Assembly: GCA_964017185.1 (NCBI GenBank)
Contig: OZ024880.1
Coordinates: 44,653,071 to 44,717,070, forward strand
Direction: 5' to 3'
Length of the DNA stretch: 64,000 nucleotides
Origin: Rugalucina vietnamica
Taxonomy: Eukaryota; Mollusca; Bivalvia; Lucinida; Lucinidae
A program made the translations under genes and the position numbers. Under the pieces are notes generated by a model. It saw only the letters and a program-made list of their open reading frames with translations. It searched no databases and was not told where the DNA came from. This document shows positions 29,469-64,000 of this stretch, piece by piece; position 1 is the first letter of the stretch, and each line of letters opens with the position of its first letter.

Positions 29469-29636
29469 GGTTAAACTATGTTCATTCAACGTTAAAGGGC
29501 TAGGAAATAAGGAAAAACGACGAACAATTTTTCAATGGTTCAAAGACAAAAACGTTGATATATGCTTTATACAAGAAGCACATTATACAAACGCATGTAA
29601 AGACATATGGGTAAAAGATTGGGATGGGGATATGTA

Positions 29637-29682
<46 letters not shown>

Positions 29683-29892
29683 GGGGGGGGGGGGGGATAT
29701 GTAGTTTAGCGGTAATAATTCAAGAAGTATGGGTGTGGGTTTTCTCTTTAACAAAACTTTAAATATTAATGTTGTAAGCATAAAAGAAATAATTGAAGGA
29801 CGCATGCTTGCTTTAGACATTGAGATAAACAAAATAAGAACTGACTTTAGTTAACATTTATGGACCGAACAAAGAAGATATCACATTTTTTC

Positions 29893-29923
<31 letters not shown>

Positions 29924-30264
29924 AAAAAAAAGAAAGAAACATTTTGTAATGATAACGACAACTGCATTTTTGGAGGCGATTTTAATATAGTTTTAAATCC
30001 TGAAGTGGACAAAAGTGGAGGAAACAAAAATACTCATCCTCGCAGTAGGACCAAATTGAAAGAAATAATGGATACATTTGATTTAGTAGACGTGTGGAGA
30101 GCTTTCAATCAGGATAAAAAAGCTTTTACTTGGCATTCGAACACACGTCCAAAAATATTTTGCAGATCAGATTATTTTTTACTTAAAAAACATATGATGA
30201 GCACAGTGGATAAAGCTGAGATAAAGAACAGTGTTAAATCAGACCACACTGTAGTTTTAATATA
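29469..30264 (+). pseudogene. L1/Tx1-like LINE, endonuclease portion (left arm)
   Basis: The start MVKLCSFNVKGLGNKEKRR is the usual opening of an apurinic-type endonuclease (EN) domain. It is followed by QEAH (metal-binding Glu), then FGGDFNIVLNP with the GDFN motif near 29970-29985, and SDH near 30239-30247, the catalytic His end of the domain. The frame is broken by a stop at 29636 linked to a T/G insertion and by an A-run at 29895-29935 that replaces expected residues. An upstream frame from 29335 may be 5' UTR. The EN continues conceptually into 31405-31527 once the 30265-31404 element is discounted. Confidence 0.85.
29639..29692 (-). mobile_element. Poly(T)/poly(G) insertion with 9-13 bp flanking duplication
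   Basis: GGGGATATGTAGT occurs at 29626-29638 and again at 29693-29705, bracketing about 42 T followed by G. On the minus strand this is a C-run then a long A-run between target duplications, as left by reverse transcription of little more than a poly(A) tail. The mirror copy is at about 63861-63922. Confidence 0.7.
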
Positions 30265-31404
30265 TACTCAGTACATAAAGAAACGCAAAAGGTATATTTT
30301 CTATCATAACTTGTAAAATTTAAAGATAACTGTTTCAAATTTACAGAAAACAAAGAATGACATGTCTCCTACCGGCAGACTGAATTCCATATTTTTTCGA
30401 ACACGGAAACATTTTGTTTTTTGGCAAGAATTTTTGGTGATGGATACTCTTTTTTACCACTTTAAAAACCTCTTCTGTTCACTTTTTTGCCTTACAACGA
30501 TAATTCATCAGTTTATGATTGCCTTTCATAAATCAGAATTGAGTTTGTGAGTCACTATGGCTATCTTTGGCTGTTATAGTCAACAACATGAATAAGTGGC
30601 CAAAATGCTCAAAACGATGGTCAATCTGGCACACTTAAAAATTTGTGTCATAAGTAAAAATTGGGCTTGGCTGCAAGTGATAAGAGTAAACACTTCTTTC
30701 AGAAGCATAATACTGTCTAAAACACAGCTGTATACTGTTCATAAAATGTAACGCACCTTACATTTTGACCAAAATTGGCAAAATTTGAAAAACGTCTAAA
30801 AATAGAATTCGCGGGACTAGCAAATTGCAAATTACGTTAAATTGTAGTAAAGTTTCATGCTATCAAATTCTAAATCCTTGTCTTAACCTTGATTTTATCA
30901 CCAAGAGAAACTGTTTTCAATGAACCAAAAGTTCTGGAAAACGACCAGAAATTTTATCTGAGGGTAAGCTTTAAGAGGGTCACATTTATGTGAACTAACA
31001 TTATTTAATCGAGATAGGGACATCATTTACCGAAAAGGAGACCAAAATGCCGAATTTCGAAAGAGATTGTTACTTTTCATAAAACGCATTTTTAAAAATC
31101 ACAGCAAAATTTTTCTTTTAATGAAATTCAATTAATTTTGTGTTTTATGATTTGCTGGACCACAATGATCATACTCGAAGCAAAATTTTATTTAATTATT
31201 CTCTCAATTGTGTTTTTTAGAACAAAATGTTGATTTCACAAGTTTTCACCTAACAATTACGGCCGCTTTCAAATCGCAACGAAACTCAGTTGTGAAACTC
31301 TCATATGAATGGCAAATCCTCAGAACCACTTAGACTTTGAAAATATATTATACTAATGCGAAAAAATAAAAATCAAAACTTTGCGTTTCTCTTTATACTG
31401 AGTA
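30265..31404. mobile_element. TIR element in LINE endonuclease end (left arm)
   Basis: 1140 bp bounded by TACTCAGTACATAAAGAAAC and, inverted, TACTCAGTATAAAGAGAAAC, each followed by GCAAA. The flanking duplication is TA, or equally ATAT. Rejoining the flanks with one copy reads VLIYLKINEIKRGPG in frame. No long open frame is present. The interior is AT-rich, so it is a non-autonomous element of Tc1/mariner type or similar. Confidence 0.8.
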
Positions 31405-31527
31405 TATTTGAAAATAAACGAAATAAAACGAGGGCCAGGGATATTTAAACTAAATAACATGATAATGTTAGACGGGGCATATAAAGAAAAAATTAAAAAG
31501 GCTATAAGAGATATACAAGAGCTTATA
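31405..31527 (+). pseudogene. LINE, segment between endonuclease and RT (left arm)
   Basis: Reads INEIKRGPGIFKLNN and AYKEKIKKAIRDIQEL, the linker seen after the EN domain in L1/Tx1-type LINEs (K-R-G-P-G followed by L-N-N). It is cut at 31527 by the 6.9 kb element and resumes in frame at 38426. Confidence 0.8.
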
Positions 31528-34450
31528 GCCGCTCAGCTGAAATTCAAACAAGCCCTAAATCGTAAATAAAATTACCTCATCGTTCGGAAGGATGAATTTG
31601 GTCTCAAATTGAAGATAATTGATTGTTCTTTCAGAATCCGGTTGTCGTAGTGTCAAAAAAGTGTAGCGTCATATCAGAAAAAGGGGAGATAACCCTGTAT
31701 TTGTTAAAATTAAGAATTGCCCATGGGGATACGAAAACGTCAAAAATATTTTTTTCGACTTCGGTTTCGAGTCTTTGATTATATTTTCGTATTGTACAAT
31801 AGTTTGTCAACATAATGTGATTGATTTTTACTGTTTGTAATTTTTCAATGACGCTTTAACGGCCGGTAACGTATGTAACCTTGCAAAAAATTTGATTTCG
31901 ACGTCTTGCGTTTTTTATCCAAAGAACAGTATTTTAGAAATACCAACGATTTTCTATCTATATAAGGCTCTGTTAATGGGCAACACGTAAGTGTTCTCAT
32001 ATTTTCGCTATGACATCTCTATATCTTGTAAGTGCGTTTTAAAGTGACCCACCCATTATTGAAAAATGCCGTTTTACGAAGTTAAATCTCTCATTCAGTA
32101 GAGAAAAACTTATTGATAAGCATGTATGCCTTTTAATTTACTACGAGGAATGGACATACTGGCTCAAATTACATTCTTTTTAACATTTTGGGAGAAATAA
32201 ATAATAAAATAGGCTTCAGATGTATATGGTCACGTAGACTATATATATGCATACAGCAGACAAAACGCTAAAAATTCGGGCCCCCATAGATACACCCATA
32301 CACGAACATGATTTTGAAACGAAACAATGCCTCATCGTCCAGAAGGAGACATTTCGTCATAAATTAAAGAAAAGTGGTTGTTCTTTGAAAAAAGTGTAGC
32401 ACTAAATCAGGACAGGGCAGACAGATACCTCTTTATTTGGTTAAATCCGAAATGACACGATGAAATATTGGAAGGTTGAAATATCATTTATTCTTTTCCA
32501 TTTTGATCACTGTGTTAAATTTGTTTCATCATACAATCAGGTGTCTACACATTGTTATTGGTTTAAACATTTTAAGAACGTACGCTACTGCAATAACGAT
32601 GCGTAACATACGTAGCACATTATTATACACTGAATTGGCGCCATGCGATGCGATTTCTGTTTGAGATAAAATATTTCATAGCGAACTAAAATAAAATGTA
32701 CACGAAGATGCTGTTTATAAGCCTTTGCAATGAATAATTTACTTTACCAATGATGTCATTTTTATATTGTTAGCCATTGTTAAATCACCCACCAGATTCT
32801 TGAATTATACCGTTTTACCGTTTTCTGTGTAGGCATGGATACTTCCCACTATAGAAAGTTATTAAATAAAAATGTTGGCCTTTACCAGATCAGAAAATTC
32901 GGACCACGGTTCGCGACCGCGACGGAGGAGAAAAAAAGGTGAAGTGTAAATTACAAAGTAGTCTTATTCAAATGGTTACGTAAACTACATTCGCATTAAT
33001 ACAACAGTTAAGCATTTCATACAGGTTAATTTCAGGATCAAAGTAAGTTTAAGGTCCGTTCGATCATTTCATGCCGTTTTTGTTTACCAAAATATATTTC
33101 TTTGATTCAAATGCAATCTCAGACTGTTGTTGTTGTGTTGTCGTCGTCGTTTCTATTTTCACCTACACCATTTTGTAGCACAAAAGTGGTTTGAAGACTT
33201 GTATAGCTTAACATAGAAGTTTAGACCCAAATAAAAGTATGTCTATAACACCTACATTTTATTCTTAGTTCTATAGGTTTTTTCTTCGTAATTTGGTTCT
33301 ATTTGGAGTTCTATGAAACCGATATATCCTGAGGCAGCATTTTGTGTTACATACGTTACACACAAAGCATGATATGTTACATTTTATTTACTTTCTACAC
33401 TGTTTGGAGTCATTGGAGTTGTTTAAAAATATTTAGAATAAAGTGTATTCATGTGCCCTTTCCAAATATAAGATTCATTGTTTCAATCTTAGGTTTACGG
33501 TGTGCAGTTATTGTTCCGTTTTTATCAAGAATGATAACAATCGTTTACTGTGCGCAGTTATTTCTAAGTGGCATGGCAGGGCATAATCAGCATCTAGAGG
33601 TATGGATATGACCATAGTTTCATATCTTTCTAATCTGAATCTAAGCCCACACTGTTACCATAATAGCGAAAACGTGAAATCATTTCAAAACGTACATTCA
33701 AAGAGATGTTTACTTAATAAGAGATATTTACTTAATAGATGTTTACTTAGTATATAATATTCCTATGCGTACGCGTATCGTAGATCACCTGGCACTGTTA
33801 ATTGTTTACACATACATGTATTATAGCATACCAATAGAACCTTAAACTTGACTACAAAATAAGAGAAGCCACTTTGGGAACGATTTTTTCCAATTCCACT
33901 GACGTAAACCTCTTAATAACTTTGATTTTAGTCAATTTACTGAAGATAAAGTGAAGGTAACGAACAGTTATATGTGAAACAAGCAGTATTGAAATCGTAT
34001 CAGCGACATCTCATTAACGTGTAACGCTTACTCTAAAGTATTGGGATGAAATTGTCGTCTCTGTGTAAGAATGACCTCTTATACATTAAATACGCTCCTA
34101 AAGTTCTCGACATGATTGTTAAATTGTACAAAACAGTACTGAATTATGTTACGTATGTTACACAATAATGATACAGAAACTTTTTTTTATTAAATGGTGC
34201 TATTGAATACGGATTCATATTTTATTGACTTTAATGAAATTGAGCAGGTATTTTATCTGTGTTTTATGTTTTTATATAATTTTAAGTAAAGCAAATGCAT
34301 TGGAGTGCCGGCATAGAAGAATTAGCAAACGATTTAAAGAATAAGGAAAAGCCGTATGTGTTGTTAGTCATTTTTCACACAAATCACATTACTGAACGTC
34401 TCCTTCACGCTTTATACCATTAAAATGATACTTATTGCATTTCCCTTTAA

Positions 34451-35394
34451 GGATGTTCGCTGCCAATGAAAAAGTATTCAAACTTTTTTTCTAACCACTC
34501 TTTTTTGATTCCAAAATACAACATAAGACATTTGAAAGCAAAATAAATATAGGGTAGTGTGCATTTTTTCAAGCTACAGGCCTCTGAATGAGATCTCTGA
34601 GCATCATGTTTTAAATTTAGTAAAATCAATTTATTTTTTAATTCTTTGAAACAAACCTGTCTTGAACAAAAATACACCTAGAGTACTTTCAAAAGTCATA
34701 ATATTTATGTAACGCAGACTATTTTGGACCAAACGCATAGACAAAATTGCAACTGGAAGTGGATGACAATTTTTTACCAGTATTTTTCCAACTCTACCCC
34801 CATACTTGAATAGTCGGAAAAAATCAATATTTTGAAATGTGCCAAACCCATATTTGTTTATTCAAACTTTTTCTTGTATTTTCACACAACATAGAACTTT
34901 GTAATATTGTTCGAATAAAAGAAAGAAACATATAGGGTAGTGTGCATATAAGAGAGAACCAACAACTTGAAAATCACAATTTTCAGCCTTTTTTCAGCTG
35001 TTTTGTTTCTTGAAGCCTATTTCATAAAACCACCTAAAATTTTAAAACCAGCACACCAAAGACACAAAGACTGACTTAGAAGACAATGTACACATATACT
35101 GCAGCTAAAATAAACAAAGAAATAGTGCAATTAATTCGAAAATGTGTAATATTCAAGTTTAATCTACCCTACCCCCTAACTTTCACTGAAAACTTATTTT
35201 TTCTGAAAAGTTGCAGAAAATGGGGTGAAAAAATGAAGTTTCTTAGATTGACAATTTTCATGGTTCGTTCAATGCATATCATCATTATGTATCCAAATAT
35301 AAAATATTGGGAAAATATCTAGAACCGTTTACGAGATATTCAACAAAAGAAAAACCGGAAGTTCCGAAGTGTCAAATGTTAGCAGCGAACATCC
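34451..35394. mobile_element. TTAA-flanked TIR element (GGATGTTCGC family), copy 2, left arm only
   Basis: 944 bp, flanked by TTAA at 34447-34450 and 35395-35398. The right arm has the empty site, with a single TTAA near 59103-59106. Paired-coordinate sums on either side differ by exactly 948 (944 + 4). It is highly similar throughout to 12037-12982. Confidence 0.95.
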
Positions 35395-36775
35395 TTAAAT
35401 GAATATGACATAAAGTTGCTCTTGATGAAGCAGAATTTCACAATTTTGCAACACAACATACATTGTATGTAAAACCTTTTAAAGCAAAACACATATTGGT
35501 ATAATAGCTTGTAACAAAGCATCTTTGGGAAAAATACAAACAGAAATTCGTCCCAATTTTGATACTCTCATGATACACAGAAAGGTAAAAGTAGGTAAAC
35601 GGAAACCAAAAACCTACCTTTCATGTTTCCTGAAAGTTTTAGTATGTTAAGAAGGAAACTCATTCCCTTGATAACTATTATCAAGGCTAATATTATATAC
35701 CATAATACGAGATCGCAAATTTGGATAACTTGATCAATTAAAATATCATTGTATCATTTATTTTTTATATATAAAATGAACTATCTTGGCATATGAAGTG
35801 ACGGCTTCGTTTCAGCTCATAAGGAACCACCTTGTTGCTCTACAGTGTTTTAAGGAAAAAACGTAGTGAGACAATTATGCAATTCTAATAAATGTGTTAT
35901 ATACGTTACATTTTGAACATAAAGGAAAATATTAAAAAGATTGGGCTTTCATTTTTTTTATACTTAAGACAAAATCATTCTGCTAAAACGAATGAGGTTT
36001 CGGGGATAATATTTGAATACTGTGTGCAATACATCAGTGATACCAGTGGAAGAGTGTCATTTTTGGGAGGGGTATGGCTATCCAAAGATAAATACATGTA
36101 ACTCAATGACTTCATATAAATATTATATGTTTACAACATTTAAAAGCAAATAAATTGTTAGTTGTTGGTGTCTATAAAATGGCAGCATTAGTCATTCCTA
36201 ACTTGATATTAGAAACTAACTTAAAGTATCTTTGATATATATTTTGTAATCAGAACAACAAATTTGTACCCATGAGCAATTATCCTGAGAAGCAAAGTAG
36301 ATCTTAATATCACCCAGAGTACATGTACATGTATGTTGTATATGCGTACAATTTACCTATAAATAAAATTCAATAACGTGTTTTCCTTCATTCTTACATT
36401 CTTTCTTTCATTCTTCCCCTCTTTCTTTAGCTGTTTATTTCATGTCATGTTATGATTTGTATTTGACATTTTACTTTATGGTGTTACGCGTGTTACATTT
36501 TCAATTTAATACGAATGCCGAGAAATCGATGTAATTATTCGGCTTTATCGAGTAAAATACACGCTGCCATTAAGTCATTATTCCTTAAACGTTATATAAT
36601 ATATTTCAAATCGAAATCTTTGCAAGCTACATGTTCTTTGATTATTCGCATGTGTGTATGATGTAGGCAAGGTTGATCCCGTTTACTCATTCTGCTTAAA
36701 TCAAATTCGGTGTTACACATAGTTTTAGTTAAAACATTAAAATTTCCTGATAAATCGATATGATATATTTAGTAA

Positions 36776-36873
36776 CAGTTTGTGTTTTTGCTAAATAGAC
36801 GCATCCTATTGCGGGATACTGTATGTTCAATACATGCATTGATGTTAAGAAATTAAGAAATGTTACTTATGTT
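36776..36873. repeat. 98 bp perfect inverted repeat, left member
   Basis: Runs from CAGTTTGTGTTTTTGC to ATGTTACTTATGTT and is repeated in perfect inversion at 37310-37407, with a 436 bp loop. It lies within the large modular element. Both arms of the giant palindrome carry the pair (right arm near 57094-57191 and 57628-57725). Confidence 0.9.
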
Positions 36874-37309
36874 ACATGGCGTAGCTCTTACTGAGATACG
36901 TTATTTCTCTAGGAGACCTCTTCCTTGAAATTATTTAAACGTTGTAAGAGAACTGTCCTAGTTTTACAAAGATGAACGATATTAAAAATAGCTCTTATTT
37001 GTGCAAAATGGTTGAAGGGCGACTTTAAATCTTCCAGCTTTTCAATAGGAGTCGAAGTGTTCAACGACATATTATAAAATATATATCAAAGACAGATTCG
37101 TAGTATTTTGTTTGAAATGTTTCCATTAAATCTAATATGTAACCGATACAACTGTAACACGAATACTAGAACAAATAAAAAAAACGCAAATTGTAAAAAC
37201 TTTCAACTATTTTTATCGGCCGACCCCAGTCCTTTTTTATAAAGTAACATATGTAACATCTCAGAATGCACCTTGAAGCTCTATACATATTTCTCTATGA
37301 GTATATAAG

Positions 37310-37407
37310 AACATAAGTAACATTTCTTAATTTCTTAACATCAATGCATGTATTGAACATACAGTATCCCGCAATAGGATGCGTCTATTTAGCAAAAACA
37401 CAAACTG
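37310..37407. repeat. 98 bp perfect inverted repeat, right member
   Basis: Exact reverse complement of 36776-36873. The lack of any difference contrasts with the clearly diverged outer arms of the same element. Confidence 0.9.
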
Positions 37408-38425
37408 TCAAGAAGAATTGGGAAGAAAATCCAATTTACGAATCGGTTTCAAATTGGTTTTGTAACCATGCACCAAAAATGAATACGCTTGAGAAAGAGA
37501 TATGTGCCCATAATTGTCAAATTTCGCTACAATGTTTTTGGGCGCAAAACAACCAAATATTCGAGGAGACACCCATCTTTCATTTTAGACTAAACTTCCC
37601 CATCTGGACGATAAGGTTATGTTTCATATTGAACCCCGGATCAGCATAACGCCTTAATATGGGATGCAGAATTTATATTGTATTCACTAATTGTGTTTAT
37701 ATTTGTCTACAGGTACGTAGTCTACGTGACCATATACACCAAGAAGCCTATTTTATCATTTATTCCCCTTTAAAATGGAAAAATAAAATAATTCTATCGA
37801 GTTAATCAAATTTCTGTCGGAAATTTGAAAGATATACACGTGAATCTATAAGTTATTATCTATCAAATGGCGATTTAATGTCGAAAAAACGTTACTTTTA
37901 AAGAATGGGTTGGGTTTTTAAAAGCGTTCTGACAACATGGAGAGATGCAATATCGAAAAAATGAAAACATCTACACACTGCCCATTAAGTGAACCTTACA
38001 TAGAAACAAAATTGTTGGTATATCTAAAATACTGTACTCTGTATAAGAAACGCAAGGCGTCAAAGTCAAAATTTCTTCCGTGTTACGTACGTTACCGGCC
38101 GTTAAAGCGTGTGTTAAAAAGCACAAAAAGTTCAAATCTAGTGCACTGTGTTGACACATCAATGTTCAATACGAAAATATAATCAAAGGCTCAAAATGGA
38201 AATGGAAAAAAAAAATATTTTGACATTTTTCCATCCCAATGGCTAATTCTTAATTTTACAAAATACAGAGTTATCTCCCCTTTTTCTGATATGACGCTAC
38301 ACTTTTTTGACACTACGACAACCGGATTTTGAAAGTACAATCAATTATCTTTAATTTGAGACCAAATTCATCCTTCCGAACGATGAGGTAATTTTATTTT
38401 CCAAATTCAGTTTCAGCTGAGCCAC

Positions 38426-38648
38426 TATAATGTTTTGGGGCGAAAACAGTGAGGCAAACCCTGCAGTATTATGGTCTCTTATCAAAGGAACGACCAGAAA
38501 TGAAACAATATCTTATTCAAGCAAAAAGCATAAAACCGAAGAGGAAAACTTAAGAAAGCTGGAACATGAAATAGATAGTTTGGAAGAACGCTTAATACAA
38601 GTTAACAACAATAGTAACAGCAGCAACAACAACAACAACAACAACAAC

Positions 38649-38704
<56 letters not shown>

Positions 38705-38706
38705 CA

Positions 38707-38744
<38 letters not shown>

Positions 38745-41336
38745 GTTCGACTGCAAACTCTTGAAAACAATATTAATAACGAGCTTAGAAATAAGAAAGA
38801 ACAACTGGAAGAAATTTATAGAATAAAGGCTGGAATTTTAACAAGACTTAAGATAACGCATCTACAAGACAGTGAAAAAAAATTAAAATACCCAAAAAGT
38901 TTAGAAACGCATAAAGCCGAGAGTAAAATAATAAACCAACTTTGTATAAATGGGAAAACAGTGAATGATCAGAATGAAATTTTGGACGCGCAGATATCGA
39001 TGCTATATTACAAGAAACTCTATGAAAAACGCAACAGCTGTGAACCGCCATACAACTTTTTTTTTCGAAATCATGGTCTACCGACATTAAACGAACAAGA
39101 AAAACAAAAATGTGAAGGCCTCTTAACCGACAAAGAATGTGAATCTGCGATAAAAGACTTGAAAAACGGTTAATCTCCAGGTTCAGATGGTTTTACGGTC
39201 GAATTTTATAAAATATTTTGGCAAGATCACAAAGACACCATGCTGAACTCATTCAGTCATTCTTTTCAAGTTAATTCAATGTCCGACATCCAAAAGCAAG
39301 GTCTTATAACTCTTCTTCCAAAAAGTAACAAGAACTTGACAAATCTTTCTAGTTGGAGACCAATAAGTCTTTGAATGTAGATTACAAAAAAATGAGCAAA
39401 GCGATTGCAAATGGAATAAAAAAGGTTCTCAAAATTTTGATAGACAGTAGTCAAACAGGTTTCATCAAAGGTTGATATATTGGCGAAAACATACGTCTCC
39501 TTTTTGATATAATCGAATATACGGAAGAACACGACTTACCTGGTATATTACTCCTCACGGATTTCGAGAAAGCTTTCGATAGCATAAATCACGAATATAT
39601 TGAACAAATTTTAGACGTATTTAATTTCGGTCAAGATATTAAATCATGGGTAAAATTGTTTTATAATAACGCAACAAGCTGTGCCCTTTACAATGGATAT
39701 TTAACCTCTTTTTCCCCATCTAACGAGGAGTAAGACAAGGGTGTCCCCTCTCGCCTTACACATTTATATTGGGTATTGAAATACTCTCAGTCGCTATTAG
39801 ACAAAATAAAGTATTCATGGCAAAACAGTAAACACTACTTTGTTCGCCGATGACTGCACTGTTATATTGGATGGCTCTGAACAAAGTTACAATGCAACTA
39901 TACATTTATTCGAAGAATTTGGTAAACTATCAGGATTAAATTTGAACTTTAACAAGTGTGTCCCATTAAAGCTCGGTTCCCTACGAAACGTGCACGATAT
40001 AGTTTATAACAAAAGAAAGAAATCATATGGAACAAAGATACGGCTAAAGCTCTAGGAATACACTTCCATTCGCGAACTGAACAGATAATGGAGCTGAACT
40101 TTAAACCAAGAATAGAACAATTTCGCAGAGATATTACATCATGGAAAAAACACAAACTAACGACGATAGGCAATATTACCGTGTTCAAAACCTTTATTCT
40201 ATCTAAATTAACATACTTGTTCTCATTTCTCCCTAATCCATCATCAGAAATTATAAAATCATTAAAACAGCAAAGTTTTGAATTCATATGGAATAATAAA
40301 AGGGACTAAATAAAACGAGATACACTCATAAAACCATATGAAGAAGGCGGTTTAAGGATGGTTGACTTGAACTGTTATGTAAATTCGTTAAAAATGGCAT
40401 GGGTTAAACGCCTTATTGATGAACAAAATAAGGTAACATGGAAAATATTTTACGAAAACGAACTAAGCAAACATGGTGGGTCTCTGAATTTTGAAAGTAA
40501 TCTAAAACCCTGCAGATTTAAAATATTTACACTTTAAAAACTTGTTTTTAAAGGATATCTTATATACGTGGTGCTATCTCAACTATGACAAAAACCCTCA
40601 GGAAATTAACGCGCAGATTCTTTGGAATAACAGTCATGTAAGAAATCAGTCAAAACCCTTTGTTTTTTTTTAACATGGATAGAAAAGGGCATTAATCATA
40701 TTAAACACATTTTTGATAATCAATATAAGCGTTTTAAAACGTTTGCAGAACTACAGACTGAGTTTGCACTACCGCCAAATGAATATTTGAATTATTACAA
40801 GTTAATATCATCAATACCGAAAGAATGGCTAAGACAGTTAAAAGTGCAAACACTACAGATAAAACAAGAACCAGCTCTATTTACAGTCGTCAAAGCAAAA
40901 GATCAAAATAACATTTGTAAATACATTACAGACTTTCAAATTAAAAAAGTAATAGTAATGAAAAAACTAAAGCACAGCGTAAATGGGAATCGTACTTCCA
41001 AGATGTAACTTTTGACTGGAAATCTATATTTCGTAACATATTTGCCATTTGTAAAGAAAACAAACTCCAAAACTTTCAATATAACTTTGTACATCGTAAC
41101 ATTGCGACGAACAAGTACCTGTTAAAGTGTAAATATACAGAATCGAGCTTATGCTCCTTTTGTAACATGGCTATTGAAATTATCGATCATTTGTTCTGGG
41201 AATGCCATTTTGTACAATACTTTTGGAACAAACTCTTTGATTTCCTATCACAACATCATTTTATTGACATTGGGAATAATAACGAAGCATGAAGGCACAA
41301 AAATGGATGCATTGCTTATGTAAAAATGTTGTTGTT
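38426..41336 (+). pseudogene. L1/Tx1-like LINE, reverse transcriptase and C-terminus (left arm)
   Basis: MFWGENSEANPAVLWSLIKG opens a coiled-coil-like region (38426-39173) with an asparagine microsatellite. RT signatures follow in several frames: SPGSDGFTVEFYKIFW (about 39175), SWRPISL (near 39355), TDFEKAFDSINH (about 39557), RGVRQGCPLSPY (about 39725), and FADDCTVILDG with the FADD catalytic box (39840). GNITVFKTFILSKLTYL and EEGGLRMVDLN come next, and then a Cys/His end, LCSFCNMAIEIIDHLFWECH (about 41150). A nonsense codon replaces Arg near 39472, with frameshifts around 39720 and 40060. An A-run starts at 41337. All lesions checked are shared with the right arm. Confidence 0.88.
38604..38742 (+). 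repeat. AAC/AAT microsatellite encoding polyasparagine
   Basis: In-frame AAC and AAT codons with a few AGC/AGT and one GAC give a run of mostly Asn inside the LINE's N-terminal RT linker. The left arm has five more codons than the right and the frame is kept in both. Confidence 0.9.
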
Positions 41337-41484
41337 AAAAAAAAAAAAAAAAAAAAAAGGTCAAAAGGTACATGTATATCCCTGCATACGTAAAAGTGGA
41401 GTTCAATGGATATACATTACAGGAACATGATTTCCTGATGCCTGTCCGCATGTTATGCAATTTCATTAAAATAATCAGAAATCG

Positions 41485-41519
<35 letters not shown>

Positions 41520-41623
41520 TCAAAAGGTACATATATATCCCTGCATACGTAAAAGTGGAGTTCAATGGATATACATTACAGGAACATGATTTCCTGATGC
41601 CTGTCCGCATGTTATGCAATTTC

Positions 41624-41677
<54 letters not shown>

Positions 41678-41690
41678 AGAAAAAAAAAAA
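41337..41690 (+). repeat. LINE poly(A) followed by two ~159 bp units with A-runs
   Basis: A-run 41337-41358, then a unit from GGTCAAAAGGTACATGTATA to its own A-run (41359-41517), then nearly the same unit again (41518 onward) with a longer, interrupted A-run. The unit body resembles the terminal block of the GAGGCGG repeat family. The right arm has a single unit (about 53033-53158). Confidence 0.8.
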
Positions 41691-41739
41691 AAGCATGTTA
41701 ACGTCTATCCTTGTATCCGATTGTCGCCTCTCCCGCTTG

Positions 41740-42075
41740 TTTTTGTTTCGTTTCTGTTATATCCAGTATGCAATAATCTAAAATTGTATTGCCCGAGCTC
41801 TTACTTCCGATTGCGGTCTGTTAAGGTTCATCGCGATAAGCTTCTTGACAAATAAGCAACACTTTCTCAGCTAATATTGTACGAATATCTGTCCCTGTCT
41901 GATCTATTTACTAGGAAATGAGGTAATTAAATGTGACTTATGTTACTCCGATGTCATGTTATTCATTGTATTTCCGCTATCATTCTCAGTAAACACGCTA
42001 TAGTTCTTGGTTATAAATAACAATCAATTAGATAACATATAAATAATTGTAAGCAATACAGCTCCTGTGCATGCA
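41740..42075. repeat. Low-copy segment shared with 13370-13757 (left arm)
   Basis: Same-strand similarity to 13370-13757 from GTCCCTGTCTGAT to CTCCTGTGCATGCAAATG. The mirror copy lies near 52600-52920. This ties the palindrome arms to the local duplicated sequence. Confidence 0.65.
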
Positions 42076-51054: not shown

Positions 51055-51056
51055 TT

Positions 51057-51371: not shown

Positions 51372-51554
51372 ACTTTTTCCTAAGAGGAAAAAAAATGAAA
51401 ATTTTCATTAGAAAAAAACGAAAATTTTGTAATTTTTGCTGAAAACATATATAGACCGTGTGTACACGTTAGAACCGCCTCGTCGAGGCAGTTCTAACGA
51501 GACCCACAATCTATGCTATAAAGGAAAAATAAGAAAAATACGTACACCCATGTA

Positions 51555-52517
51555 CGAGGGTGATCCAAGAAGTAATGCGAACTCATGTGTAATTTCTTTC
51601 ACCATTGTCATTTTTCAAGATAGTTTACATCAGAATAATGATGCATTATCGATTTTTCCGGATCCGATTACTATTTTGCCTGAATCACATAGCAACCCTC
51701 GTAGCCTAGCAACAAGAGAATGCAAGGTAAACGACCTTGGCCACGGGTAAAATGGATTCTATTTATGTAATGAAGTGTCAAATGTAAACCATCATTACGT
51801 CAATAATCGTTTTATTCCCAAGTACAATAATCCCTTTAAATAAACTTGCTGTACATACCTTGATGAGTTGAACGTAGCACAAATTATTGAGGTTTGGCTA
51901 TCTGTACCCCCTAGAATTTGAGTCAATTTTTGTCTCTCTAAATCGCCACATTTTTATCAACGCCTATTCTACTTAAACCAAAAAGGTTAAATTCCATACA
52001 ATATTTATTTTTTGAATAGAAATTCTTCGTTGTGATAGGCTGTGGGCATAAATGTCGACATTTACATCTTGATCGGGGTCAAATATACTCATGAATTATG
52101 GGTATTTGTCGTACTTCGTCGAAATCGTGATATTTTTGTCAGATGCCGTTGCTAGGCAACATAGAATAGACCCTGCTGATCTTTGCATTTCGTTTTCTAT
52201 ATTATTTCCAAAACATAAGACAAACATAACACAACGAATATGATTTGCGTGTATATTAATGTCAATTTAATAAATTGGAGCACAAAATCTTTCATTGTAC
52301 CCCAAACAAAAATGACATTCAGTCAATTTGGCGTCCATGTCGACTTCGGGCCGACAAATCAAATAATCCTTGTATCTCGACTCGTCATCTGAACTTCATG
52401 ATATAACACCTAATTACTGCACATATATGCACGTGTTAACATGCCAAATTATTTACATATATCTGCATTGGTTACTAAAATATAGTTGTGTTCGCATTAC
52501 TTCTTGGATCACCCACG
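51555..52517. mobile_element. Mariner-type non-autonomous element (right arm)
   Basis: Mirror of 42151-43112. Ends CGAGGGTGATCC and GGATCACCCACG with TA flanks. Confidence 0.75.
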
Positions 52518-52997
52518 TATACCAAAGTTTTACTATACAAAAGTGGGGTTTAAGGGGGTATTCTTCGCATGGACATGTTTTCCTGATGCATTTGCATGCA
52601 CAGGAGCTGTATTGCTTACAATTATTTATATGTTATCTAATTGATTGTTATTTATAACCAAGAACTATAGCGTGTTTACTGAGAATGATAGCAGAAATAC
52701 AATGAATAACATGACATCGGAGTAACATAAGTCACATTTAATTACCTCATTTCCTAGTAAATAGATCAGACAGGGACAGATATTCGTACAATATTAGCTG
52801 AGAAAGTGTTGCTTATTTGTCAAGAAGCTTATCGCGATGAACCTTAACAGACCGCAATCGGAAGTAAGAGCTCGGGCAATACAATTTTAGATTATTGCAT
52901 ACTGGATATAACAGAAACGAAACAAAAACAAGCGGGAGAGGCGACAATCGGATACAAGGATAGACGTTAACATGCTTTTTTTTTCTCCTTTTTTTTT

Positions 52998-53031
<34 letters not shown>

Positions 53032-53179
53032 CGATTTCTGATTATTTTAATGAAATTGCATAACATGCGGACAGGCATCAGGAAATCATGTTCCTGTAAT
53101 GTATATCCATTGAACTCCACTTTTACGTATGCAGGGATATACATGTACCTTTTGACCTTTTTTTTTTTTTTTTTTTTTT

Positions 53180-55802
53180 AACAACAACATTTTTACATAA
53201 GCAATGCATCCATTTTTGTGCCTTCATGCTTCGTTATTATTCCCAATGTCAATAAAATGATGTTGTGATAGGAAATCAAAGAGTTTGTTCCAAAAGTATT
53301 GTACAAAATGGCATTCCCAGAACAAATGATCGATAATTTCAATAGCCATGTTACAAAAGGAGCATAAGCTCGATTCTGTATATTTACACTTTAACAGGTA
53401 CTTGTTCGTCGCAATGTTACGATGTACAAAGTTATATTGAAAGTTTTGGAGTTTGTTTTCTTTACAAATGGCAAATATGTTACGAAATATAGATTTCCAG
53501 TCAAAAGTTACATCTTGGAAGTACGATTCCCATTTACGCTGTGCTTTAGTTTTTTCATTACTATTACTTTTTTAATTTGAAAGTCTGTAATGTATTTACA
53601 AATGTTATTTTGATCTTTTGCTTTGACGACTGTAAATAGAGCTGGTTCTTGTTTTATCTGTAGTGTTTGCACTTTTAACTGTCTTAGCCATTCTTTCGGT
53701 ATTGATGATATTAACTTGTAATAATTCAAATATTCATTTGGCGGTAGTGCAAACTCAGTCTGTAGTTCTGCAAACGTTTTAAAACGCTTATATTGATTAT
53801 CAAAAATGTGTTTAATATGATTAATGCCCTTTTCTATCCATGTTAAAAAAAAACAAAGGGTTTTGACTGATTTCTTACATGACTGTTATTCCAAAGAATC
53901 TGCGCGTTAATTTCCTGAGGGTTTTTGTCATAGTTGAGATAGCACCACGTATATAAGATATCCTTTAAAAACAAGTTTTTAAAGTGTAAATATTTTAAAT
54001 CTGCAGGGTTTTAGATTACTTTCAAAATTCAGAGACCCACCATGTTTGCTTAGTTCGTTTTCGTAAAATATTTTCCATGTTACCTTATTTTGTTCATCAA
54101 TAAGGCGTTTAACCCATGCCATTTTTAACGAATTTACATAACAGTTCAAGTCAACCATCCTTAAACCGCCTTCTTCATATGGTTTTATGAGTGTATCTCG
54201 TTTTATTTAGTCCCTTTTATTATTCCATATGAATTCAAAACTTTGCTGTTTTAATGATTTTATAATTTCTGATGATGGATTAGGGAGAAATGAGAACAAG
54301 TATGTTAATTTAGATAGAATAAAGGTTTTGAACACGGTAATATTGCCTATCGTCGTTAGTTTGTGTTTTTTCCATGATGTAATATCTCTGCGAAATTGTT
54401 CTATTCTTGGTTTAAAGTTCAGCTCCATTATCTGTTCAGTTCGCGAATGGAAGTGTATTCCTAGAGCTTTAGCCGTATCTTTGTTCCATATGATTTCTTT
54501 CTTTTGTTATAAACTATATCGTGCACGTTTCGTAGGGAACCGAGCTTTAATGGGACACACTTGTTAAAGTTCAAATTTAATCCTGATAGTTTACCAAATT
54601 CTTCGAATAAATGTATAGTTGCATTGTAACTTTGTTCAGAGCCATCCAATATAACAGTGCAGTCATCGGCGAACAAAGTAGTGTTTACTGTTTTGCCATG
54701 AATACTTTATTTTGTCTAATAGCGACTGAGAGTATTTCAATACCCAATATAAATGTGTAAGGCGAGAGGGGACACCCTTGTCTTACTCCTCGTTAGATGG
54801 GGAAAAAGAGGTTAAATATCCATTGTAAAGGGCACAGCTTGTTGCGTTATTATAAAACAATTTTACCCATGATTTAATATCTTGACCGAAATTAAATACG
54901 TCTAAAATTTGTTCAATATATTCGTGATTTATGCTATCGAAAGCTTTCTCGAAATCCGTGAGGAGTAATATACCAGGTAAGTCGTGTTCTTCCGTATATT
55001 CGATTATATCAAAAAGGAGACGTATGTTTTCGCCAATATATCAACCTTTGATGAAACCTGTTTGACTACTGTCTATCAAAATTTTGAGAACCTTTTTTAT
55101 TCCATTTGCAATCGCTTTGCTCATTTTTTTGTAATCTACATTCAAAGACTTATTGGTCTCCAACTAGAAAGATTTGTCAAGTTCTTGTTACTTTTTGGAA
55201 GAAGAGTTATAAGACCTTGCTTTTGGATGTCGGACATTGAATTAACTTGAAAAGAATGACTGAATGAGTTCAGCATGGTGTCTTTGTGATCTTGCCAAAA
55301 TATTTTATAAAATTCGACCGTAAAACCATCTGAACCTGGAGATTAACCGTTTTTCAAGTCTTTTATCGCAGATTCACATTCTTTGTCGGTTAAGAGGCCT
55401 TCACATTTTTGTTTTTCTTGTTCGTTTAATGTCGGTAGATCATGATTTCGAAAAAAAAAGTTGTATGGCGGTTCACAGCTGTTGCGTTTTTCATAGAGTT
55501 TCTTGTAATATAGCATCGATATCTGCGCGTCCAAAATTTCATTCTGATCATTCACTGTTTTCCCATTTATACAAAGTTGGTTTATTATTTTACTCTCGGC
55601 TTTATGCGTTTCTAAACTTTTTGGGTATTTTAATTTTTTTTCACTGTCTTGTAGATGCGTTATCTTAAGTCTTGTTAAAATTCCAGCCTTTATTCTATAA
55701 ATTTCTTCCAGTTGTTCTTTCTTATTTCTAAGCTCGTTATTAATATTGTTTTCAAGAGTTTGCAGTCGAACGTTATTATTATTATTATTATTATTACTAT
55801 TG

Positions 55803-55855
<53 letters not shown>

Positions 55856-56075
55856 GTTGTTGTTGTTGTTGTTGTTGCTGCTGTTACTATTGTTGTTAAC
55901 TTGTATTAAGCGTTCTTCCAAACTATCTATTTCATGTTCCAGCTTTCTTAAGTTTTCCTCTTCGGTTTTATGCTTTTTGCTTGAATAAGATATTGTTTCA
56001 TTTCTGGTCGTTCCTTTGATAAGAGACCATAATACTGCAGGGTTTGCCTCACTGTTTTCGCCCCAAAACATTATA
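53180..56075 (-). pseudogene. L1/Tx1-like LINE, reverse transcriptase and C-terminus (right arm)
   Basis: Mirror of 38426-41336 with the same motif order (FADD box near 54670; LCSFCNM Cys/His end near 53360) and the same frame breaks. It differs by a shorter asparagine run (about 55773-55890) and one Gly-to-Asp change (NHGLP to NHDLP). Its T-run (poly(A) on the minus strand) at 53159-53179 is followed by a single ~126 bp unit rather than two. Confidence 0.88.
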
Positions 56076-59000
56076 GTGGCTCAGCTGAAACTGAATTTGG
56101 AAAATAAAATTACCTCATCGTTCGGAAGGATGAATTTGGTCTCAAATTAAAGATAATTGATTGTACTTTCAAAATCCGGTTGTCGTAGTGTCAAAAAAGT
56201 GTAGCGTCATATCAGAAAAAGGGGAGATAACTCTGTATTTTGTAAAATTAAGAATTAGCCATTGGGATGGAAAAATGTCAAAATATTTTTTTTTTCCATT
56301 TCCATTTTGAGCCTTTGATTATATTTTCGTATTGAACATTGATGTGTCAACACAGTGCACTAGATTTGAACTTTTTGTGCTTTTTAACACACGCTTTAAC
56401 GGCCGGTAACGTACGTAACACGGAAGAAATTTTGACTTTGACGCCTTGCGTTTCTTATACAGAGTACAGTATTTTAGATATACCAACAATTTTGTTTCTA
56501 TGTAAGGTTCACTTAATGGGCAGTGTGTAGATGTTTTCATTTTTTCGATATTGCATCTCTCCATGTTGTCAGAACGCTTTTAAAAACCCAACCCATTCTT
56601 TAAAAGTAACGTTTTTTCGACATTAAATCGCCATTTGATAGATAATAACTTATAGATTCACGTGTATATCTTTCAAATTTCCGACAGAAATTTGATTAAC
56701 TCGATAGAATTGTTTTATTTTTCCATTTTAAAGGGGAATAAATGATAAAATAGGCTTCTTGGTGTATATGGTCACGTAGACTACGTACCTGTAGACAAAT
56801 ATAAACACAATTAGTGAATACAATATAAATTCTGCATCCCATATTAAGGCGTTATGCTGATCCGGGGTTCAATATGAAACATAACCTTATCGTCCAGATG
56901 GGGAAGTTTAGTCTAAAATGAAAGATGGGTGTCTCCTCGAATATTTGGTTGTTTTGCGCCCAAAAACATTGTAGCGAAATTTGACAATTATGGGCACATA
57001 TCTCTTTCTCAAGCGTATTCATTTTTGGTGCATGGTTACAAAACCAATTTGAAACCGATTCGTAAATTGGATTTTCTTCCCAATTCTTCTTGACAGTTTG
57101 TGTTTTTGCTAAATAGACGCATCCTATTGCGGGATACTGTATGTTCAATACATGCATTGATGTTAAGAAATTAAGAAATGTTACTTATGTTCTTATATAC
57201 TCATAGAGAAATATGTATAGAGCTTCAAGGTGCATTCTGAGATGTTACATATGTTACTTTATAAAAAAGGACTGGGGTCGGCCGATAAAAATAGTTGAAA
57301 GTTTTTACAATTTGCGTTTTTTTTATTTGTTCTAGTATTCGTGTTACAGTTGTATCGGTTACATATTAGATTTAATGGAAACATTTCAAACAAAATACTA
57401 CGAATCTGTCTTTGATATATATTTTATAATATGTCGTTGAACACTTCGACTCCTATTGAAAAGCTGGAAGATTTAAAGTCGCCCTTCAACCATTTTGCAC
57501 AAATAAGAGCTATTTTTAATATCGTTCATCTTTGTAAAACTAGGACAGTTCTCTTACAACGTTTAAATAATTTCAAGGAAGAGGTCTCCTAGAGAAATAA
57601 CGTATCTCAGTAAGAGCTACGCCATGTAACATAAGTAACATTTCTTAATTTCTTAACATCAATGCATGTATTGAACATACAGTATCCCGCAATAGGATGC
57701 GTCTATTTAGCAAAAACACAAACTGTTACTAAATATATCATATCGATTTATCAGGAAATTTTAATGTTTTAACTAAAACTATGTGTAACACCGAATTTGA
57801 TTTAAGCAGAATGAGTAAACGGGATCAACCTTGCCTACATCATACACACATGCGAATAATCAAAGAACATGTAGCTTGCAAAGATTTCGATTTGAAATAT
57901 ATTATATAACGTTTAAGGAATAATGACTTAATGGCAGCGTGTATTTTACTCGATAAAGCCGAATAATTACATCGATTTCTCGGCATTCGTATTAAATTGA
58001 AAATGTAACACGCGTAACACCATAAAGTAAAATGTCAAATACAAATCATAACATGACATGAAATAAACAGCTAAAGAAAGAGGGGAAGAATGAAAGAAAG
58101 AATGTAAGAATGAAGGAAAACACGTTATTGAATTTTATTTATAGGTAAATTGTACGCATATACAATATACATGTACATGTACTCTGGGTGATATTAAGAT
58201 CTACTTTGCTTCTCAGGATAATTGCTCATGGGTACAAATTTGTTGTTCTGATTACAAAATATATATCAAAGATACTTTAAGTTAGTTTCTAATATCAAGT
58301 TAGGAATGACTAATGCTGCCATTTTATAGACACCAACAACTAACAATTTATTTGCTTTTAAATGTTGTAAACATATAATATTTATATGAAGTCATTGAGT
58401 TACATGTATTTATCTTTGGATAGCCATACCCCTCCCAAAAATGACACTCTTCCACTGGTATCACTGATGTATTGCACACAGTATTCAAATATTATCCCCG
58501 AAACCTCATTCGTTTTAGCAGAATGATTTTGTCTTAAGTATAAAAAAAATGAAAGCCCAATCTTTTTAATATTTTCCTTTATGTTCAAAATGTAACGTAT
58601 ATAACACATTTATTAGAATTGCATAATTGTCTCACTACGTTTTTTCCTTAAAACACTGTAGAGCAACAAGGTGGTTCCTTATGAGCTGAAACGAAGCCGT
58701 CACTTCATATGCCAAGATAGTTCATTTTATATATAAAAAATAAATGATACAATGATATTTTAATTGATCAAGTTATCCAAATTTGCGATCTCGTATTATG
58801 GTATATAATATTAGCCTTGATAATAGTTATCAAGGGAATGAGTTTCCTTCTTAACATACTAAAACTTTCAGGAAACATGAAAGGTAGGTTTTTGGTTTCC
58901 GTTTACCTACTTTTACCTTTCTGTGTATCATGAGAGTATCAAAATTGGGACGAATTTCTGTTTGTATTTTTCCCAAAGATGCTTTGTTACAAGCTATTAT

Positions 59001-62000
59001 ACCAATATGTGTTTTGCTTTAAAACGTTTTACATACAATGTATGTTGTGTTGCAAAATTGTGAAATTCTGCTTCATCAAGAGCAACTTTATGTCATATTC
59101 ATTTAAAGGGAAATGCAATAAGTATCATTTTAATGGTATAAAGCGTGAAGGAGACGTTCAGTAATGTGATTTGTGTGAAAAATGACTAACAACACATACG
59201 GCTTTTCCTTATTCTTTAAATCGTTTGCTAATTCTTCTATGCCGGCACTCCAATGCATTTGCTTTACTTAAAATTATATAAAAACATAAAACACAGATAA
59301 AATACCTGCTCAATTTCATTAAAGTCAATAAAATATGAATCCGTATTCAATAGCACCATTTAATAAAAAAAAGTTTCTGTATCATTATTGTGTAACATAC
59401 GTAACATAATTCAGTACTGTTTTGTACAATTTAACAATCATGTCGAGAACTTTAGGAGCGTATTTAATGTATAAGAGGTCATTCTTACACAGAGACGACA
59501 ATTTCATCCCAATACTTTAGAGTAAGCGTTACACGTTAATGAGATGTCGCTGATACGATTTCAATACTGCTTGTTTCACATATAACTGTTCGTTACCTTC
59601 ACTTTATCTTCAGTAAATTGACTAAAATCAAAGTTATTAAGAGGTTTACGTCAGTGGAATTGGAAAAAATCGTTCCCAAAGTGGCTTCTCTTATTTTGTA
59701 GTCAAGTTTAAGGTTCTATTGGTATGCTATAATACATGTATGTGTAAACAATTAACAGTGCCAGGTGATCTACGATACGCGTACGCATAGGAATATTATA
59801 TACTAAGTAAACATCTATTAAGTAAATATCTCTTATTAAGTAAACATCTCTTTGAATGTACGTTTTGAAATGATTTCACGTTTTCGCTATTATGGTAACA
59901 GTGTGGGCTTAGATTCAGATTAGAAAGATATGAAACTAAGGTCATATCCATACCTCTAGATGCTGATTATGCCCTGCCATGCCACTTAGAAATAACTGCG
60001 CACAGTAAACGATTGTTATCATTCTTGATAAAAACGGAACAATAACTGCACACCGTAAACCTAAGATTGAAACAATGAATCTTATATTTGGAAAGGGCAC
60101 ATGAATACACTTTATTCTAAATATTTTTAAACAACTCCAATGACTCCAAACAGTGTAGAAAGTAAATAAAATGTAACATATCATGCTTTGTGTGTAACGT
60201 ATGTAACACAAAATGCTGCCTCAGGATATATCGGTTTCATAGAACTCCAAATAGAACCAAATTACGAAGAAAAAACCTATAGAACTAAGAATAAAATGTA
60301 GGTGTTATAGACATACTTTTATTTGGGTCTAAACTTCTATGTTAAGCTATACAAGTCTTCAAACCACTTTTGTGCTACAAAATGGTGTAGGTGAAAATAG
60401 AAACGACGACGACAACACAACAACAACAGTCTGAGATTGCATTTGAATCAAAGAAATATATTTTGGTAAACAAAAACGGCATGAAATGATCGAACGGACC
60501 TTAAACTTACTTTGATCCTGAAATTAACCTGTATGAAATGCTTAACTGTTGTATTAATGCGAATGTAGTTTACGTAACCATTTGAATAAGACTACTTTGT
60601 AATTTACACTTCACCTTTTTTTCTCCTCCGTCGCGGTCGCGAACCGTGGTCCGAATTTTCTGATCTGGTAAAGGCCAACATTTTTATTTAATAACTTTCT
60701 ATAGTGGGAAGTATCCATGCCTACGCAGAAAACGGTAAAACGGTATAATTCAAGAATCTGGTGGGTGATTTAACAATGGCTAACAATATAAAAATGACAT
60801 CATTGGTAAAGTAAATTATTCATTGCAAAGGCTTATAAACAGCATCTTCGTGTACATTTTATTTTAGTTCGCTATGAAATATTTTATCTCAAACAGAAAT
60901 CGCATCGCATGGCGCCAATTCAGTGTATAATAATGTGCTACGTATGTTACGCATCGTTATTGCAGTAGCGTACGTTCTTAAAATGTTTAAACCAATAACA
61001 ATGTGTAGACACCTGATTGTATGATGAAACAAATTTAACACAGTGATCAAAATGGAAAAGAATAAATGATATTTCAACCTTCCAATATTCCATCGTGTCA
61101 TTTCGGATTTAACCAAATAAAGAGGTATCTGTCTGCCCTGTCCTGATTTAGTGCTACACTTTTTTCAAAGAACAACCACTTTTCTTTAATTTATGACGAA
61201 ATGTCTCCTTCTGGACGATGAGGCATTGTTTCGTTTCAAAATCATGTTCGTGTATGGGTGTATCTATGGGGGCCCGAATTTTTAGCGTTTTGTCTGCTGT
61301 ATGCATATATATAGTCTACGTGACCATATACATCTGAAGCCTATTTTATTATTTATTTCTCCCAAAATGTTAAAAAGAATGTAATTTGAGCCAGTATGTC
61401 CATTCCTCGTAGTAAATTAAAAGGCATACATGCTTATCAATAAGTTTTTCTCTACTGAATGAGAGATTTAACTTCGTAAAACGGCATTTTTCAATAATGG
61501 GTGGGTCACTTTAAAACGCACTTACAAGATATAGAGATGTCATAGCGAAAATATGAGAACACTTACGTGTTGCCCATTAACAGAGCCTTATATAGATAGA
61601 AAATCGTTGGTATTTCTAAAATACTGTTCTTTGGATAAAAAACGCAAGACGTCGAAATCAAATTTTTTGCAAGGTTACATACGTTACCGGCCGTTAAAGC
61701 GTCATTGAAAAATTACAAACAGTAAAAATCAATCACATTATGTTGACAAACTATTGTACAATACGAAAATATAATCAAAGACTCGAAACCGAAGTCGAAA
61801 AAAATATTTTTGACGTTTTCGTATCCCCATGGGCAATTCTTAATTTTAACAAATACAGGGTTATCTCCCCTTTTTCTGATATGACGCTACACTTTTTTGA
61901 CACTACGACAACCGGATTCTGAAAGAACAATCAATTATCTTCAATTTGAGACCAAATTCATCCTTCCGAACGATGAGGTAATTTTATTTACGATTTAGGG

Positions 62001-62025
62001 CTTGTTTGAATTTCAGCTGAGCGGC
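56076..62025. mobile_element. Large modular inverted-repeat element (right arm), without the TTAA insertion
   Basis: 5950 bp mirror of 31528-38425 minus the 948 bp insertion. Ends GTGGCTCAGCTGAAA and TTTCAGCTGAGCGGC, flanked by TATA. This is the cleaner copy for studying the element's own architecture. Confidence 0.78.
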
Positions 62026-62148
62026 TATAAGCTCTTGTATATCTCTTATAGCCTTTTTAATTTTTTCTTTATATGCCCCGTCTAACATTATCATGTTATT
62101 TAGTTTAAATATCCCTGGCCCTCGTTTTATTTCGTTTATTTTCAAATA
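62026..62148 (-). pseudogene. LINE linker between endonuclease and RT (right arm)
   Basis: Mirror of 31405-31527. Reads INEIKRGPGIFKLNN on the minus strand. Confidence 0.8.
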
Positions 62149-63288
62149 TACTCAGTATAAAGAGAAACGCAAAGTTTTGATTTTTATTTTTTCGCATTAG
62201 TATAATATATTTTCAAAGTCTAAGTGGTTCTGAGGATTTGCCATTCATATGAGAGTTTCACAACTGAGTTTCGTTGCGATTTGAAAGCGGCCGTAATTGT
62301 TAGGTGAAAACTTGTGAAATCAACATTTTGTTCTAAAAAACACAATTGAGAGAATAATTAAATAAAATTTTGCTTCGAGTATGATCAATGTGGTCCAGCA
62401 AATCATAAAACACAAAATTAATTGAATTTCATTAAAAGAAAAATTTTGCTGTGATTTTTAAAAATGCGTTTTATGAAAAGTAACAATCTCTTTCGAAATT
62501 CGGCATTTTGGTCTCCTTTTCGGTAAATGATGTCCCTATTTCGATTAAATAATGTTAGTTCACATAAATGTGACCCTCTTAAAGCTTACCCTCAGATAAA
62601 ATTTCTGGTCGTTTTCCAGAACTTTTGGTTCATTGAAAACAGTTTCTCTTGGTGATAAAATCAAGGTTAAGACAAGGATTTAGAATTTGATAGCATGAAA
62701 CTTTACTACAATTTAACGTAATTTGCAATTTGCTAGTCCCGCGAATTCTATTTTTAGACGTTTTTCAAATTTTGCCAATTTTGGTCAAAATGTAAGGTGC
62801 GTTACATTTTATGAACAGTATACAGCTGTGTTTTAGACAGTATTATGCTTCTGAAAGAAGTGTTTACTCTTATCACTTGCAGCCAAGCCCAATTTTTACT
62901 TATGACACAAATTTTTAAGTGTGCCAGATTGACCATCGTTTTGAGCATTTTGGCCACTTATTCATGTTGTTGACTATAACAGCCAAAGATAGCCATAGTG
63001 ACTCACAAACTCAATTCTGATTTATGAAAGGCAATCATAAACTGATGAATTATCGTTGTAAGGCAAAAAAGTGAACAGAAGAGGTTTTTAAAGTGGTAAA
63101 AAAGAGTATCCATCACCAAAAATTCTTGCCAAAAAACAAAATGTTTCCGTGTTCGAAAAAATATGGAATTCAGTCTGCCGGTAGGAGACATGTCATTCTT
63201 TGTTTTCTGTAAATTTGAAACAGTTATCTTTAAATTTTACAAGTTATGATAGAAAATATACCTTTTGCGTTTCTTTATGTACTGAGTA
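62149..63288. mobile_element. TIR element in LINE endonuclease end (right arm)
   Basis: Mirror of 30265-31404, same length (1140 bp), TACTCAGTA termini and TA flanks. Confidence 0.8.
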
Positions 63289-63619
63289 TATATTAAAACT
63301 ACAGTGTGGTCTGATTTAACACTGTTCTTTATCTCAGCTTTATCCACTGTGCTCATCATATGTTTTTTAAGTAAAAAATAATCTGATCTGCAAAATATTT
63401 TTGGACGTGTGTTCGAATGCCAAGTAAAAGCTTTTTTATCCTGATTGAAAGCTCTCCACACGTCTACTAAATCAAATGTATCCATTATTTCTTTCAATTT
63501 GGTCCTACTGCGAGGATGAGTATTTTTGTTTCCTCCACTTTTGTCCACTTCAGGGTTTAAAACTATATTAAAATCGCCTCCAAAAATGCAGTTGTCGTTA
63601 TCATTACAAAATGTTTCTT

Positions 63620-63666
<47 letters not shown>

Positions 63667-63870
63667 AAAAAATGTGATATCTTCTTTGTTCGGTCCATAA
63701 ATGTTAACTAAAGTCAGTTCTTATTTTGTTTATCTCAATGTCTAAAGCAAGCATGCGTCCTTCAATTATTTCTTTTATGCTTACAACATTAATATTTAAA
63801 GTTTTGTTAAAGAGAAAACCCACACCCATACTTCTTGAATTATTACCGCTAAACTACATATCCCCCCCCC

Positions 63871-63925
<55 letters not shown>

Positions 63926-64000
63926 TACATATCCCCATCCCAATCTTTTGCCCATATGTCTTTACATGCGTTTGTATAATGTGCTTCTTGTATAAAGCAT
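63289..64000 (-). pseudogene. L1/Tx1-like LINE, endonuclease portion (right arm, runs off the window)
   Basis: Mirror of 29562-30264. GDFN and SDH motifs are present, with the same A-run (63622-63665) within the EN and the same duplicated-flank homopolymer insertion (about 63861-63922, here C then A). The start of the domain lies beyond the window. Confidence 0.85.

Follow-up and report, generated by a model that had tools for sequence, protein, structure and literature searches.

Palindromes and inverted duplications are well known as a class in the literature, and a structure of this class, a pair of near-identical inverted arms with a spacer between them, is described here from a 64,000-bp stretch of DNA (the window) of the lucinid bivalve Rugalucina vietnamica. 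In human fold-back inverted duplications, the single-copy spacers range from 766 to 70,466 bp with a median of 3,428 bp (PMC3907307). For interstitial inverted copy-number variants, a strand switch at the replication fork has been proposed (PMC10766186). False duplications in assemblies typically show half read depth and gaps (PMC9516828). Suspicion of assembly error commonly falls on large near-identical inverted repeats. The evidence below indicates that the present structure is probably a genuine, recent interstitial inverted duplication of transposon-rich DNA.

The locus resembles the human disomic-spacer inverted duplications in its short single-copy spacer, on the scale of 0.7-3 kb, and in that one copy is ancestrally placed. 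The human cases, however, are megabase-scale and lie beside terminal deletions, whereas the present duplication is of about 19 kb, is interstitial, and keeps both outer flanks (PMC3907307). With the template-switching variants, including those of origin-dependent inverted-repeat amplification (ODIRA), it shares the interstitial position, the intact chromosome end, an inverted copy adjoining the original, and a spacer capable of enlargement. An inverted triplication is the starting point of ODIRA; here no third recent copy of the low-repeat inner part of the arm was found (PMC10766186).

The window corresponds to positions 44653071-44717070 of contig C12 (OZ024880.1) in a 1.09-Gb genome of 47 contigs, across which the matches seen fall on contigs C1 to C17. 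The 20 kb upstream and 40 kb downstream of the window were also analysed, giving 124 kb in all (window coordinates -19999 to 104000, used throughout), and no N bases occur across them. In self-alignment of the window, 29562-45841 pairs with 48831-64000 through three inverted blocks that are 98.97-99.69% identical. The giant near-identical inverted repeat proposed in the earlier note is thereby confirmed, with arms larger than were claimed. With the flanking DNA included, the left arm is seen to start at 26196, while the right arm reaches 67359, 3,359 bp beyond the window end; position 29562, formerly given as the start of the left arm, is only the point opposite the window end. Both inverted copies sit on one continuous sequence. 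Inverted identity this high over about 18 kb is far beyond chance. The spacer has exactly the length reported before (2,989 bp), but most of it is not unique as had been supposed, since 46392-48626 is a multicopy DNA transposon. Without this transposon and one copy of its 5-bp target-site duplication, about 749 bp are left as a single-copy spacer of kilobase order between the arms.

The original copy may be identified from sequence alone through the target-site duplication of a retrotransposon together with paralogs. The left arm is the original, and the right arm an inverted copy with two non-ancestral junctions, because the target-site duplication of a long interspersed nuclear element (LINE), a relative of this LINE on contig C16, and an old paralog on C12 agree. 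The LINE begins in the left flank and runs across the outer junction far into the left arm, and its two target-site duplications (Table 1) match at 12 of 13 bases; a match as good or better occurred in a fraction of 0.0006 of 20,000 random 40-bp zones. The right arm carries the 3' target-site duplication, but its LINE ends abruptly at 67359. The C16 relative starts at 25971 and crosses the left outer junction at 90-91% identity, and it matches the right side only as far as 67350. The right arm stops within the LINE on its outer side and at the equivalent of 45841 on its inner side, with unrelated sequence beyond both. The C16 relative is without the fold-back element and the 6-kb element that are nested in the LINE here, and so presents an empty site for the latter; the two elements predate the duplication, because both arms contain them.

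At the inner end, the evidence comes from the old paralog, which lies about 120 kb away on the minus strand (C12:44556000-44580000). It runs from the arm end through the left and then the right part of the spacer to pieces of the right flank, keeping the order and orientation of the left arm, and no right arm stands between the spacer and the more distant right-flank pieces. The spacer parts 45954-46214 and 48654-48782 are collinear with C12:44575210-44574349 (minus). With a query composed of arm, spacer and right flank, the minus strand of the paralog yielded 20 collinear pieces (3,717 bits), and nine control targets yielded 4 to 12 pieces. The left flank, used as a control, gave more bits on its minus strand (4,150), which came from long high-identity repeat matches, and 12 pieces on its plus strand, most of which come from the old right-flank unit. 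A further chain in the left flank included 40 bp of the arm and a part of the spacer transposon. Compared with the nine controls, only the C12 paralog brought together long pieces of the arm end, the two non-transposon parts of the spacer, and the right flank.

Genome-wide searches point to the same paralog. For the low-repeat inner arm piece 44420-45780, the genome offered three candidates; all were scored, and they are the two arms and the C12 paralog at 77-81%. Searches covered 559 of the 749 bp of non-transposon spacer, 359 bp from its left part and 200 bp from its right. Among the candidates scored (40 out of 169 and 40 out of 333), besides their own locus, they match the C12 paralog (69-79%) and short repeats. 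Among the candidates scored, the outer arm part 26196-31500 found the two arms and otherwise repeats only (40 of 12,896), as did the region of the 970-bp element (40 of 6,996). A search with 29562-41300 was dominated by the 6-kb element, and since the arms did not appear among the 19 of 4,686 candidates scored, it is uninformative on copy number.

Several points weigh against an interstitial inverted duplication. The paralog's right-flank pieces are members of an old local repeat family, and a number of them are dispersed repeats; this family recurs in the left flank, where neither the arm end nor the non-transposon spacer accompanies it; and 6.7 kb lie between the spacer and the right-flank unit in the paralog. 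Direct adjacency of spacer and right flank before the duplication is thus supported, short of base-by-base proof, and an alignment of the two, joined, with the paralog is suggestive only. Assuming such direct adjacency, neither new junction shows microhomology, which in short inverted form at the junction of spacer and copy is a signature of fold-back; this also sets the locus apart from the human fold-back cases (PMC3907307). At the outer end, a gap of about 10 bases interrupts the C16 alignment some 10 bases or less from the left outer junction.

The old local repeat family is a segmental duplication family of about 67-88% identity, whose members lie at 6.4-10.5 kb and at 71-79 kb (loci L011-L012) in window coordinates and at C12:44556000-44570000. 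A separate observation concerns the inner boundary, where 45797-45841 holds about 35 bp that are found 93-100% identical at many places in the genome, some of them as units about 375 bp apart. Between its arm end and spacer the C12 paralog has repeats related to these units at 72-74%, though without a match there to the 35-bp piece itself; the piece may be a remnant of an older array. It was considered as a breakpoint signal, and no mechanism is built on it.

The ancestral context of the left arm bears directly on whether the right arm could be the second haplotype of the same locus, set in reverse beside the first by an assembly error. Between the two options of the earlier note, a recent palindromic duplication or a head-to-head join of haplotypes, this context supports the first, and a join is judged unlikely. 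No feature of a plain head-to-head join is apparent: the left arm has ancestral neighbours on both sides and the spacer belongs with it, while the right arm breaks off at both ends into unrelated sequence; a join would require two gapless false junctions plus the reversal of a block, in 124 kb without an N. The non-ancestral junctions at both ends of the right arm are, on the other hand, also what an inserted block would have, and the low-repeat arm piece has no further recent copy in the assembly, which likewise speaks for a join. The locus is like heterotype false duplications in having two neighbouring near-identical copies that differ as alleles do, and unlike them in that the copies are inverted, without gaps between or beside them, and in an order explained by the insertion of one copy (PMC9516828).

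The differences between the arms are themselves allele-like: they include a whole transposon, a tandem-repeat unit, microsatellite lengths, and about 0.1-0.17% of mismatches. End-to-end alignment paired 18,508 columns; the arms differ by 31 mismatches, 22 of them transitions, and by 15 indels. Five of the mismatches stem from one shifted homopolymer end and seven more, as read by eye, lie in or at simple repeats, so that the 19 outside simple repeats amount to about 0.10%. Of the indels, a 948-bp TTAA-flanked insertion and a 148-bp tandem-repeat excess are both in the left arm, and the other 13 are of 1-15 bp; the smaller differences include a 14-bp indel and changes in homopolymer and microsatellite length. 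All the differences listed in the earlier note (a complete transposable element insertion, the 14-bp indel, microsatellite lengths, and substitutions) are seen in this alignment. The haplotype-like differences, for which it took a join seriously, are equally expected after a duplication. Dropping the five homopolymer mismatches, 26 of the 31 were compared with relatives among the fetched loci: five proved derived in the left arm and five in the right, one was mixed, and 15 had no relative. Four of the ten polarised sites depend on the single C16 relative, and at 27970, where more distant repeats disagree, the nearest was used. The 5-to-5 split speaks for a duplication but fits alleles too, and so does not decide.

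The 948-bp element is most simply explained as a gain by the left arm after the duplication, because the TTAA site is empty in seven of eight fetched copies of the 6-kb element and the element filling the eighth, on C16 (L015:3903-4860), is only 90% identical. In that copy a TTAA element occupies the same TTAA as window 34447-35398; it is 90.4% identical to the left-arm element, other pairs of copies being 91-93% identical, and the 6-kb element around it is 95.6-97.3% identical to the right arm. As proof that the right arm has lost its TTAA element the C16 site was rejected, the 90.4% identity pointing to a separate insertion. That two TTAA elements only 90% alike stand at one site of two 6-kb copies is a little odd, and a possible insertion hot spot. 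These findings also speak against regarding the palindrome as a structurally active locus, whose centre and arms take up transposons and from one arm of which the TTAA element was cleanly lost. If this were so, duplication, insertion and precise excision would be recorded at a single locus within a short time. The seven empty sites and the divergence of the C16 element make it quite improbable. The spacer transposon and the TTAA element represent separate insertion events.

Mobile DNA makes up much of the arm. The 3' end of the LINE matches zf-RVT (PF13966) with an E value of 3.8e-8, above the cut-off, and its 5' part has endonuclease-like matches to PF03372 and PF14529 below their cut-offs. 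The fold-back element region was found elsewhere in 37 of the 40 places scored, at 92-97% identity, and the closest fetched relatives of the 6-kb element are 97-98% identical. For the spacer transposon, 39 of the 40 places scored lie elsewhere (out of 5,974 first-look candidates); we take the CAC start and 5-bp target duplication of its family to recall Transib/RAG-like elements. Inside the 6-kb element, 36775-36873 recurs about 437 bp away, at 37310-37408, as a perfect inverted copy of 99 bp, and both have mirror copies. The second 99 bp are absent from all eight fetched copies of the element; the small inverted insertion is present in both arms and is therefore older than the large inverted duplication.

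Comparison with Pfam of 10 stop-to-stop frames selected from the arms and the spacer gave a single match over its cut-off, the zf-RVT domain of the LINE. No transfer RNA (ARAGORN) and no Rfam family at gathering score were found in the window, and Rfam at E values up to 1 gave nothing over 45400-46400. A function of the duplication would seem to be absent. These results, from limited tests, tell against an older palindrome kept near-identical by gene conversion between its arms, as on mammalian sex chromosomes. The likeness lies in the near-identical inverted arms with a spacer between them (PMC8981503, PMC7023750) and in an arm identity near or above 99% (PMC8981503); the present locus differs from those palindromes in that no genes were found in its arms, nor evidence of conversion (PMC8981503, PMC7023750). 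Moreover, the arm differences are spread along the arms, and the large ones (948 bp and 148 bp) persist. Both arms also hold the 6-kb element, which makes the duplication not very old, unless the element was itself copied by conversion. Such an origin is, on balance, very improbable.

Artificial palindromes do arise in long reads by amplification (PMC6218980), and one of these, from a missed adapter or an amplification fold-back, might have been incorporated in the assembly. In that case, it may be reasoned, the arms should be identical save for read errors. Instead, one arm has a transposon of its own with a clean target site, derived mutations are found on both arms, and a 2,989-bp spacer is present. 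The chance of such an artefact is almost negligible.

A recent inverted duplication of the left arm may be reconstructed as follows. The ancestral order would have been left flank, arm, spacer of about 749 bp, and right flank, with the LINE and its nested elements already in place. During replication or break repair, synthesis that had reached the far end of the spacer would have jumped to the opposite strand close by, or folded back on it, at the inner end of the arm. About 19 kb would then have been copied in reverse, up to a point inside the 5' region of the LINE, and the copying would have ended by rejoining the original right flank, which would give the order arm, spacer and inverted arm. 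After this, each arm would have gathered its own mutations. Fold-back or template switching during replication is the most likely mechanism, and both junctions probably exist in the chromosome as assembled; their exact positions (48830|48831 at C12:44701900 and 67359|67360 at C12:44720429) are usable for a polymerase chain reaction or read test. Biologically, the event would be an ordinary type of structural change in transposon-rich DNA.

Table 1. Features of the inverted duplication and of the mobile elements in its arms and spacer (window coordinates)
Feature	Position	Strand	Remarks
Left arm, original copy	26196..45841	+	19,646 bp; inverted match to 48831-67359; continuous at outer end with C16 relative, at inner end with C12 paralog
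Spacer	45842..48830		2,989 bp; 749 bp without transposon and one 5-bp target-site duplication
Right arm, derived inverted copy	48831..64000, on to 67359 (= L011:3359)	-	18,529 bp in total; outer end truncates LINE internally
LINE with nested insertions	25970..41690	+	starts in left flank, outside arm
LINE 5' target-site duplication	25957..25969	+	in left flank; 12 of 13 bases equal 41691-41703
LINE 3' target-site duplication	41691..41703	+	inside arm, after poly-A tail
Fold-back-type element	26733..27754		self-inverted, about 82-83%; in both arms, inside LINE
Multicopy element with inverted ends of ~700 bp (6-kb element)	31523..38431		~6 kb without TTAA element; inserted in LINE, in both arms
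TTAA-flanked element	34447..35398		left arm only; complete 948-bp insertion, TTAA on both sides; relatives at 12033-12986 and 68303-69253
Empty TTAA site	59103..59106		right arm; clean, single TTAA
Tandem duplication, 159-bp period	41337..41677	+	left arm; 148 bp of it absent from right arm
Multicopy element of ~970 bp	42147..43117		both arms; 38 of 40 scored places elsewhere, at 89-95%
Multicopy DNA transposon in spacer	46392..48626		2,235 bp; inverted ends CACCCAGGATTACCTGTTACAG; 5-bp target duplication ATATG

Some other features of the analysed DNA lie outside the arms. In the left flank there are two tandem arrays, at 16783-17892 and 18045-18967, with units of about 161 bp and 148 bp. Downstream of the window, 97337-101038 (L014:3337-7038) is an open frame of 1,234 codons with zinc-finger-, endonuclease- and reverse-transcriptase-like parts, which by eye is a LINE.
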